DNA of 64,000 bases from Thermincola carboxydiphila. Lineage in GTDB: Bacteria > Bacillota > Thermincolia > Thermincolales > UBA2595. Numbering within the stretch: the stretch's first letter is position 1; each line of letters begins with the position of its first letter. The DNA lies in assembly GCA_016841325.1 (NCBI GenBank), contig JAENZJ010000017.1, positions 1 through 64,000 of the forward strand, written 5' to 3'. Under the pieces are notes generated by a model. That model was given only the letters and a program-made list of their open reading frames with translations. It did no database searches and was not told the DNA's origin. Shown in pieces: positions 3,034 through 35,799 of the stretch. The position numbers and the translations under genes were made by a program.

Positions 3034-3087
3034 TTTCCCCGGTGCAGTCGGTGAACAAATATTGCCTGCAGAATTTATAAGCAAAAA

Positions 3088-3170
3088 TGTGACAAAGGTA
3101 AACCCGTTGAAAGACGGGGACACAAAGCCATGGGTCTAAGGTACTGTTGCTATGACTGCCAGGCTGCCGG
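3088..3170 (+). promoter_or_regulatory. c-di-GMP-I (GEMM-I) riboswitch upstream of a chemoreceptor
   Basis: The GEMM-I layout is recognisable: AAGGTAAA, a hairpin CCCGTT-GAAA-GACGGG (3103-3118) with a GAAA tetraloop, GGACACAAAGCC (consensus GACGCAAAGC, one change), a P3 helix holding the 11-nt tetraloop receptor as TCTAAG (3135-3140) opposite TATGA (3151-3155), then GCCAGGCTGCCGG. The receptor differs from CCUAAG/UAUGG by a compensating C-G to U-A swap. A 17-bp hairpin follows 5 nt later and the chemoreceptor gene starts 86 nt after the aptamer. Ligand binding is inferred from family resemblance; whether it turns expression on or off is not decided. Confidence 0.88.
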
Positions 3171-3174
3171 ATTA

Positions 3175-3255: not shown

Positions 3256-4890
3256 TTGGAAAAACAGATATATAAACTCAATTTTTTGGAAAAACTCGGC
3301 CTCGAGGGTCACGTATTTACCCGCGTGAGTTTTAATCTTAAGTACATATTTCCTGCAGTATATGCTTCTCTATTGATCTTCCTGGTACCTGCGGTACTGT
3401 ACCAGGGTAAATGGAATTCCCTGAGCACAATTCTGCTGGTTATTTCCCTGGGAGGTCTGGCAATTAATGTTGTTATAGGCAGTAAAGTAAAAATCCTGAA
3501 GAATTTTTCCGGTATCCTGCACCCTATATGGGCGTATACAACAATTGTTTTATTTGGGCTGGTTTCAGGGTTAAACATGGTGGACTGGATCCTGGCGGCC
3601 GGTTTTGTTGTTTTTGGCATAATTTATTGGTGGATTCCCAGTGCCGGTATGTCAAATGCTATCCGAGCCATATTAAACGGTATTGTCCAGGCTAATTCAG
3701 GTGATACAGATGCCCGGATCTGCCTCAGGGTTAAAAGAAAAGATGAAATCGGGATGCTGGCAGAAAACTTGAACTCATTCTTTGAAGAAAGGCAGAATTT
3801 TATCAAAATGCTCCAGGAGAATGCGTCACAACTGGCCGAGACGAGTACTGAACTGGCCAAAATTTCTGACAGCAGCTCAGCTGCTTTCAGACAAATTGCG
3901 GCTGCCATTGACCAGGTGGCACAGGGTTCAACCGAGCAGTCAAAGAGTACCAGTGAGGCTGTTGAGGTTATGGGACAGGTGGCCATGTCTATAGAGCAGA
4001 TCGCGACCGGTGCCCAGGAACAGAGTAACAATGTGGTCAAAACCACTGCTCTGGTTGATGAGATGACAGCCAAAATGGACCGGATGGCTGCCGGTATGCA
4101 AACTGTCAGGGAGGTTTCGGAACAGAACGGAGTGCTGGCCCAAAATGGCGGAAAGTCAGTAAATAAAACCGTGGAGGGGATGAACAGGGTCAGGACAGCT
4201 GTCCTGGAGACTTCACAAAACCTGAACCAACTGGGGGAAAGGTCACAAAAGATCGGGGAAATCATCCAGGTAATTGACGATATTGCCGAACAGACCAACC
4301 TCCTGGCGCTGAATGCAGCCATCGAAGCGGCCCGTGCCGGTGAGCACGGTAAGGGCTTTGCTGTGGTGGCAGATGAGGTCAGGAAACTGGCCGAGCGGTC
4401 CGGAAAGGCCACCAAGGAGATTGCTGACCTGATAACAGATATTCAGCAAAGGACCAAGACTGCTGTCGACTCCATGGAAATTGGGACCCGGGAAGCCGCA
4501 GAGGGAGTCGGGCTGGCTGAAGAAGCCGGGCAGTCTTTAAGTGAAATCGTAAATGGGGTTGCTACTGCAGCTGATAATGTAGGCAAAATTACGGATATTA
4601 TTAATGAGATAATCGAGAGCAGCCGCGAGGTTTCCGATGCAGTCAGCAATGTTGCTGCCATAACTGAGGAAAACTCTGCGGCAGCAGAGCAGATATCTGC
4701 TTCCAGTGAACAGGTTAATGCCACCGTACAGAATGTCGCCTCCATATCCCAGGAGAATGCTGCCTCTGTGGAAGAGGTATCGGCATCAACAGAGGAACTG
4801 GCCGGTTCTATTGAAAATATCTCGACATCAGCCAAAGGGCTGACCACGATGGCTGCCCGGATGCAGGAACTGGTAAATCAGTACAGGTAG
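3256..4890 (+). CDS. methyl-accepting chemotaxis protein without an extracytoplasmic sensor domain
   Basis: A 544-residue chemoreceptor. About four hydrophobic helices lie in residues 28-130 with only short loops, so the usual large outside ligand domain is missing. A HAMP-like linker (about 130-185) leads to a long signalling coiled coil whose conserved tip is at about 335-385 ([18 protein letters not shown]). The tip binds CheA/CheW and methylation helices flank it. The TTG start has a GGGAGGG site 7-13 bases upstream. A c-di-GMP riboswitch precedes it, so its amount is probably tied to c-di-GMP. It may sense membrane state, energy or a cytoplasmic signal; the stimulus is unknown. Confidence 0.93.
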
Positions 4891-27672: not shown

Positions 27673-27776
27673 AAAGGGGCTGTCCCGAAAGTAAGAAAAG
27701 TAATGGTCACTACGCAAGGTGTAGTGACCGTTTTGTTTATGTGGTGGTGAGATGTTAATTCTGGGACAGCCCCTTT
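27673..27776. mobile_element. MITE-like element with GGGGCTGTCCC ends
   Basis: Perfect 14-bp terminal inverted repeats, AAAGGGGCTGTCCC (27673-27686) and its complement (27763-27776), bound a 104-bp element with an inner perfect palindrome GGTCACTAC/GTAGTGACC (27705-27729). It has no coding capacity. Ends of this type are common on IS-derived MITEs in Firmicutes (from memory). It begins only a few bases after the codY stop and ends in a T-run, so it can also act as the codY terminator. No flanking target duplication is obvious. Confidence 0.7.
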
Positions 27777-28020
27777 TTGTGCGTGCAGGGGAAAATCGTT
27801 CATGGCGGCGTTGCGCGGCAGTACGCAATCCGCGGCGTCGGGGGTTCTCCCGTTTTGTCGGGACGGCGGCTCCGCAGGTCCGGGGTTCCGGTAACAAAAT
27901 GGGGGCTTCCAAAGAAAGTGCATTCCGGTACATGCAGGGAAAATGCCATCCGGGAAGGGATGCGAAGTTTGTCGATAAACCAAGTAATTTCAAAGAAAAA
28001 AAGATACTAAAAAAAGGATT
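27777..28020. other. GC-rich non-coding stretch after the MITE
   Basis: About 240 bp without a credible gene, more GC-rich than its surroundings up to about 27960. It can fold: CCCGTTTTGT (27849-27858) pairs with ACAAAATGGG (27894-27903), enclosing CCGGGGTTCCGG. TGCAGGGGAAAAT (27784) and TGCAGGGAAAAT (27932) are near direct repeats. It may be an element remnant or an unknown RNA. Confidence 0.4.
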
Positions 28021-28042
28021 TTGATTAATAATGGCGAAATAT

Positions 28043-28068
28043 TGTAACATTGGAAACCGCTATATAAT
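28043..28068 (+). promoter_or_regulatory. probable promoter of the flagellar operon
   Basis: A perfect -10 TATAAT (28063-28068) is preceded by TTGTAA at 28043-28048. The 14-bp spacing is short, so the -35 is doubtful. The resulting transcript would have a leader of about 350 nt containing the GEMM-I aptamer. Positions 28075-28180 hold no gene. Confidence 0.45.
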
Positions 28069-28184
28069 AGAGGTTAAAATTGTAGGTTAACATATGGGAA
28101 AAAAATATAAAAATATGTAAGAAAAGGTAGGATTTTTGCAGACAGATGACGAATACACCTCAAAAATACATACCAAACTTTGTT

Positions 28185-28358
28185 CAACGGCAAATTTACC
28201 GAAAGGTAAAGGCGCAAAGCTACGGACCTAGAGGCTTGGTTATGATACCATAATCTTTTTGAGTTATCGGACAAACGGTCATTATATATTTATGATGCTG
28301 GTAACTTCCTTTAGATTATATTACATTTATTAAGAGCTATGGTTGCCGGGCTGCCGAA
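28185..28358 (+). promoter_or_regulatory. c-di-GMP-I (GEMM-I) riboswitch upstream of flgB, with enlarged P3
   Basis: The 5' half is canonical: CGGCAAA, hairpin TTTACC-GAAA-GGTAAA (28195-28210), GGCGCAAAGC (28211-28220), then CCTAGAG (28227-28233), a one-base-expanded form of the CCUAAG tetraloop receptor. The matching 3' half is found about 105 nt later: TATGG (28338-28342) and GCCGGGCTGCCG (28345-28356), nearly identical to GCCAGGCTGCCG in the chemoreceptor riboswitch. The intervening segment would be an insertion at the P3 tip. A terminator follows before flgB. In Clostridioides difficile a GEMM-I switch likewise precedes flgB and turns it off with c-di-GMP. Confidence 0.8.
28238..28260 (+). 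terminator. terminator-like hairpin within the P3 insertion
   Basis: GGTTATG-ATAC-CATAATC, a 7-bp stem with one G-U pair, is followed directly by TTTTT. It lies inside the enlarged P3 arm of the flgB riboswitch and could end transcription before the aptamer is complete. Confidence 0.45.
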
Positions 28359-28378
28359 GGGAGGTTAGCATCATCATG

Positions 28379-28415
28379 CCAAACTGCGGTAGCCGTAGTT
28401 TGGACTTTTATATTT
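28379..28415 (+). terminator. terminator between riboswitch and flgB
   Basis: CCAAACTGCGG, loop TAG, CCGTAGTTTGG (11 bp with one G-U pair), followed by ACTTTTATATTTT. It lies 22 nt after the aptamer, the expected place for the expression platform. Confidence 0.82.
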
Positions 28416-28431
28416 TACGGGAGTGATGGTT

Positions 28432-28845
28432 TTGATCGAAAAACTGTTGTTCACCAGGACGATGAACATGCTTGAAATGGGACTTGATGCAGCTGCCCTG
28501 AGGAACAGGGTAATTGCTGACAACCTTGCCAATGTGGATACCCCGGGGTATAAACGGTCAGAGGTGCTTTTTGAGGATGTGCTGAAGCAAGCAATGGGCA
28601 GGGATACCTTGCTGGCCGGAACACTTACCCATGAAAAGCATATTCCCATTGGCAGAAAATCTGAGTTTAGCGTCACTCCAAAGGTTGTCAGGAGTGAGGA
28701 CACGTCTATGAGGGCTGATGGCAATAATGTAGATATTGACAGGGAAATGGCGGCATTGGCAAAAAATTCGATTATGTATACCGCATTGGCCCAGGAATTA
28801 AACGGTGAATTCCAGAAAATGAAGATGGCGATTACCGGGAGATAA
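28432..28845 (+). CDS. flgB: flagellar basal-body rod protein FlgB
   Basis: A 137-residue proximal rod subunit. The N-terminal rod signature is present (DNLANVDTPGYKRSEV) and the C-terminal helix ends in ALAQELNGEFQKMKMAI. I prefer the TTG at 28432, 8 nt after GGGAG, which yields MIEKLLF as in homologues; the ATG at 28426 is too close to the ribosome site. First gene of the operon, under the GEMM-I switch. Confidence 0.95.
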   Translation: MIEKLLFTRTMNMLEMGLDAAALRNRVIADNLANVDTPGYKRSEVLFEDVLKQAMGRDTLLAGTLTHEKHIPIGRKSEFSVTPKVVRSEDTSMRADGNNVDIDREMAALAKNSIMYTALAQELNGEFQKMKMAITGR

Positions 28846-35547: not shown

Positions 35548-35799
35548 CGGAAATGACCGGGAAATGGCTTATGGTGAGATGTTGTACCGATTTTCCGAAC
35601 TGTCGCCGGAGAAATGTAGCCTTGTTCCTGGCGAAGTCCGGGAACACCGCCAATTCGCCTTCCGTGGCTCAGTGGCGGCGCGGGCCGTCCATGGCCCGCG
35701 TCCCGGACTTCGCTTAGCGGAACAGCGGCGACATATCTCACGGCGCCAGTATAAGGAAAATCTTGTACAACACCTCATCAAATTCCACGGTCATTTCCG
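35548..35799. repeat. 252-bp imperfect palindrome between motE-like gene and fliK
   Basis: Nested inverted repeats fill the gap: outer CGGAAATGACCG (35548-35559) with CGGTCATTTCCG (35788-35799); then 35571-35596 with 35756-35779 (sharing TGTTGTAC and GATTTTCC); then GCGAAGTCCGGGA (35631-35643) with TCCCGGACTTCGC (35701-35713); and at the tip CGCGGGCC/GGCCCGCG (35679-35700). No credible gene lies in 35541-35936. It may be a long MITE-like insertion or an intra-operon RNA hairpin. Confidence 0.85.

Follow-up and report, generated by a model that had tools for sequence, protein, structure and literature searches.

The 64-kb window, the whole stretch of DNA analysed here, contains a flagellar-chemotaxis (fla/che) operon beginning with flgB, and the leader of this gene carries a c-di-GMP-I (GEMM-I) aptamer with an enlarged P3 arm. 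Upstream lie topA, trmFO, a xerC-like recombinase gene, hslV, hslU and codY, names which were read from the open reading frames and, for codY, from Pfam. After flgB come flgC, fliE, fliF, fliG, fliH and fliI, on to the genes for FliM, FliY, FliR, FlhA and FlhF, and further downstream those for a ParA-type ATPase, CheB, CheA, CheW, a sigma factor and FapA; rpsB and tsf are located past the flagellar-chemotaxis genes, beyond about 61.4 kb. The gene order downstream of flgB is that of the fla/che region of B. subtilis. Scans found terminator-like sites within the operon about as often as in shuffled sequences, so nothing speaks against a single long transcript, and control of the entire flagellar-chemotaxis operon by the switch is plausible. 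An ordinary GEMM-I aptamer (3087-3171, 81.5 bits) lies elsewhere in the window, upstream of a gene for a methyl-accepting chemotaxis protein (3256-4890). A TwoAYGGAY match on the minus strand (35596-35753), antisense to flagellar genes, scored 43.4 bits, just over the cut-off of 43, and is probably due to chance. The features of the leader and its first gene are as follows.

28129-28154, plus strand: possible sigma-H-like promoter, AGGATTT, 15 nt, GAAT, predicted start at about 28161; read by eye, kept in the alignment with G001 and G002
28173-28179, plus strand: CCAAACT, upstream repeat of the terminator 5' strand, predicted to pair with AGTTTGG (28397-28403) in the read-through fold; from minimum free energy (MFE) folds and pair counts
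28179-28358, plus strand: GEMM-I aptamer with enlarged P3; full-length RF01051 match
28195-28210, plus strand: P2 hairpin with GAAA tetraloop at 28201-28204; from the model alignment
28227-28233, plus strand: 5' half of the tetraloop receptor, CCTAGAG, with one extra G; RF01051 alignment, CCTA-N-AG homologous in relatives
28238-28333, plus strand: A/T-rich insert of about 96 nt at the P3 tip, present once in the genome; alignment and genome search
28293-28309, plus strand: insert segment TGATGCTGGTAACTTCC, identical in three genus members and complementary to the linker; duplex search, alignment and pair counts
28338-28342, plus strand: 3' half of the tetraloop receptor, TATGG; RF01051 alignment
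28349-28356, plus strand: P1 3' strand GGCTGCCG, putative antiterminator 5' strand pairing with 28387-28394; folds and pair counts
28357-28378, plus strand: linker AAGGGAGGTTAGCATCATCATG between aptamer and terminator, candidate partner of the insert segment; duplex and pair counts
28379-28403, plus strand: intrinsic terminator CCAAACTGCGG-TAG-CCGTAGTTTGG, then ACTTTTATATTTT; terminator scan, kept in seven of seven leaders
28432-28845, plus strand: flgB, which opens the fla/che operon and starts with TTG; reading of the open reading frame

Upstream of the leader, at 28013-28046 and 28129-28154, stand two AGGATTTT...TGRCGAA motifs that look similar to sigma-H promoters (or to 0A boxes); the start predicted from the second falls just before CCAAACT. 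A strong terminator-like hairpin of 14 pairs (27702-27732) right after codY would separate this gene from the flagellar leader.

A cmscan of the whole 64-kb window matched RF01051 (c-di-GMP-I, GEMM-I) to 28179-28358 on the plus strand with 62.3 bits (E 8.8e-10), the curated cut-off being 35 bits. The alignment covered all model positions from 1 to 87 and placed a 96-nt local end in P3, where the model has 4 positions. The first-pass annotation had placed a GEMM-I aptamer in front of flgB and noted that about 95 nt divide it in two at the P3 tip, and this full match bears it out; the borders that it gave for the two half-aptamers agree within a few bases, and the two halves of the receptor do stand opposite each other. 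The one extra G noticed there appears in the alignment as an inserted g, giving CUA-g-AGG with UAUGG opposite, and most relatives also have an extra receptor base (CCTA-N-AGG, where N is G, T or C). Both the GNRA tetraloop in P2 (GAAA) and the P3 receptor (CCTAGAG/TATGG) are present. The short P3 loop, a usual though non-defining feature of GEMM-I, is absent at 28179-28358, but a long P3 is no bar to membership, since other clan members in these genomes also carry long inserts. The expectation that covariance searches could miss such an aptamer was right only in part: plain cmscan detected it well above the threshold, whereas a windowed whole-genome GEMM-I search misplaced its 3' end at 28271, on a false 3' half, with 42.7 bits. 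The sequence analysis confirms a c-di-GMP-I riboswitch of the known class, with a P3 insert that disrupts neither the core nor the tetraloop-receptor contact. The 96-nt separation of the halves and the additional receptor base could also be read as a chance resemblance, or as an aptamer killed by insertion. We consider this very improbable, because chance is unlikely at such an E value in 64 kb, and both halves, the linker and the terminator are conserved in insert-bearing relatives, which is not expected of a dead aptamer.

By reading of the sequence, the core motifs GGCAAA and CGCAAAG are kept. They contain, at 28189 and 28216, the counterparts of G20 and A47 in Vc2 numbering, and the counterpart of C92 is at 28354. 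These three positions hold G, A and C and together favour c-di-GMP over cGAMP. The genome encodes 16 GGDEF domains, and the windowed genome search found 15 other GEMM-I aptamers in it. Presumably, c-di-GMP is the ligand of the flgB aptamer.

Forty-one genomes were searched for leader DNA matching that of the source genome (G000). Matches were found in the genus (G001, G002), in the family (G004, G006, G007 and G008, out of the family members G003-G008) and, weakly, in the order-level relative G009. An unrelated leader in relatives, which the first-pass annotation had named as speaking against its reading, is not what was found: six other family genomes have a homologous aptamer in front of flgB, five times with 159-187 nt and once with 104. 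By cmscan, the aptamer at flgB spans 180 nt in the window, 187 in G001 and 186 in G002 within the genus, and 174 (G004), 104 (G006), 159 (G007) and 175 nt (G008) in other family members, while it is 87 nt long in G009 and 86 nt in Carboxydocella, where the insert is absent. An enlarged arm, with aptamers of 159-187 nt, is thus found at flgB in all three species of the genus and in three other family members. No GEMM-I match was found at the flgB loci searched in the family members G003 and G005, so the switch at flgB is dispensable. Other clostridial flgB loci with GEMM-I have aptamers of 85-99 nt, with one of 125 nt, and most GEMM-I matches across ten genomes of the order span 76-125 nt in a search that shortens long ones. 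The P3 enlargement is probably old in the family and has since been shrunk or lost in some members. Since close relatives have kept the enlarged arm, it seems to be an inherited variant rather than an accident.

Within the genus the insert of G000 is 85-90% identical (ungapped) to those of its mates, while fourfold sites of flgB are 62-64% identical; for G001 versus G002 the values are 89% (ungapped) and 70%. Outside the genus most of the insert is not conserved. Folding of the insert compared with shuffles gave z-scores of -2.3 in G000, 0.5 and 0.1 in its genus mates and near zero in most relatives, so that a conserved independent fold is unsupported. Several other candidates were rejected. 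A mobile element or repeat does not fit an insert present in single copy in G000, with its best matches only at the homologous site. An internal hairpin, AGTTATC/GGTAACT, showed apparent covariation in G000-G002 and G004 but fails in G008 and is gapped in alignment A1. A promoter within the insert was represented by one 9-of-12 match (28268-28296), about the shuffle level for the region. A leader peptide from the ATG at 28376, preceded by GGGAGG, varies among relatives in frame, start-codon spacing and stop.

The terminator at 28379-28403 has 11 bp, a 3-nt loop and a T-rich tail, and across the seven genomes 96% of cells show its strands paired, versus 21-46% when slid. In its loop region, CGGTAGCC is complementary to the P1 3' strand, forming a putative antiterminator that is mutually exclusive with the terminator. 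This helix is paired in 98% of cells with zero double-sided changes; since no pair changed on both sides, conservation and energy support it, not covariation. Pairing of CCAAACT with the terminator 3' strand appeared in the MFE folds of G000, G002, G004 and G008, and the repeat is lost in G006. Folds with the terminator forced and with the antiterminator forced differed by at most about 3.6 kcal/mol in all seven leaders, a small gap as expected for a switch. According to the proposed mechanism, an aptamer with bound c-di-GMP would hold the P1 3' strand (28349-28356), the terminator would form and RNA polymerase would stop before flgB. In the absence of ligand, the P1 3' strand would pair with CGGTAGCC in the terminator and transcription would read through, helped by pairing of the upstream CCAAACT with the terminator 3' strand; the 96-nt P3 insert would be a peripheral extension inherited in the family. 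It is highly probable that this is a c-di-GMP class I riboswitch which terminates transcription of the flagellar operon at high c-di-GMP. The sequence analysis itself shows the aptamer, the terminator, the alternative pairings and how they are conserved, whereas the ligand, the direction of switching (OFF) and any effect of the long arm are what we infer.

What the long arm does may be explained in two ways. It could be functional, which we hold only as a tentative reading: the segment 28293-28309 would pair with the linker below P1, at 28360-28373 (GGAGGTTAGCATCA), in a pseudoknot, making the linker stiffer, shifting the balance towards the terminator and so tuning the switch. The segment is identical across all three genus members, and its duplex with the linker is better than dinucleotide shuffles in four genomes, at -24.3 kcal/mol in G000 (p 0.001), -19.0 in G001, -17.9 in G002 and -15.9 in G004 (p 0.027). 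The pairing is present in 90% of cells of alignment A1 versus 25-52% when slid, and three pairs of the helix are changed on both sides, a number equalled by 21 of 500 shuffles. However, the duplex was no better than shuffles in G007 (p 0.35) and G008 (p 0.54), G006 has kept the linker and lost the insert segment, and the insert has local folds of about equal stability with which the helix competes. The joint p over four lineages was 0.0015, but 0.09 without G000, for a segment and linker chosen after inspection, in few lineages and with an uncertain alignment of the insert. The data are only suggestive of a long-range helix that would couple the arm to the expression platform, and it is rather unlikely that the arm has by now become part of that platform, its pairing below P1 linking the aptamer periphery to the terminator decision. 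Alternatively, the arm may be a neutral expansion that is tolerated, the exposed P3 tip accepting inserts as it does heptamer-repeat hairpins at other GEMM-I sites in related genomes; we give this an about even chance. RF03167 matches seven further GEMM-I sites in the order, which are 151-176 nt long, with 90-91 nt at the P3 tip in both that were aligned; several of their arms are heptamer repeats with roughly 100-150 occurrences in G004 and G005, and the flgB insert itself varies in length, down to the overall 104 nt of the G006 aptamer. Nevertheless, the flgB insert is better conserved than fourfold sites in the genus, free of the heptamer repeat and single-copy.

In a well-studied aptamer, the arm furthest out on the periphery can thus accommodate some 100 additional nucleotides and still be maintained by selection, and the lengths at this one gene (87, 104 and 159-187 nt) form a natural series for studying how a long arm affects a riboswitch. 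The control of a flagellar operon by c-di-GMP, known from C. difficile, would extend to another clostridial lineage. In the literature consulted, nothing specific was found on long P3 arms in GEMM-I, nor on an arrangement with an arm-linker helix. The class, target and mechanism are already known; what is new is the family-specific long P3 arm.

Among the GEMM-I aptamers of related genomes, the c-di-GMP-I-GGC (RF03167) sites in G003, G004, G005, G006 and G009, at 151-176 nt, differ from the flgB switch in matching another model, in not being flgB leaders and in that several of their arms are hairpins of heptamer repeats. Five of these sites in G003-G005 (L161, L162, L149, L157 and L164) span 164-172 nt, the first two being those aligned. 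Several arms are palindromes built from (TAGTGGN)n or (TAGTTGC)n repeats; the pattern TAGTGG was matched 145 times in G004, 107 times in G005 and once in G000, and P3 may be a landing site for the heptamer repeat. At another site in G004 (L152), the GEMM-I 5' half is intact but a GGACAGCCAACCAATATTGGTTGGCTGTC hairpin stands in place of the 3' half; this aptamer may be degenerate. Ordinary GEMM-I aptamers without the insert are found at the same position and gene in G009 (L025) and Carboxydocella thermautotrophica (L035), and G009 has the CTTTGATAAGGGCAA leader and the terminator in common with the Thermincola leader. The closest known system is Cd1 of Clostridioides difficile, a GEMM-I riboswitch in front of flgB that acts as a transcriptional OFF switch at the flagellar operon (PMC9262584, PMC11477304). 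The Thermincola switch shares with it the aptamer class, flgB as first gene, the operon type, a downstream intrinsic terminator and, by analogy, the expected OFF response. Folding and conservation point to the arrangement of a Cd1-kind OFF switch, namely an intrinsic terminator and a mutually exclusive antiterminator using the P1 3' strand. In contrast to Cd1, the Thermincola switch has about 96 extra nucleotides in P3 and the extra receptor base, and its leader carries an upstream repeat of a terminator strand that could reinforce read-through.
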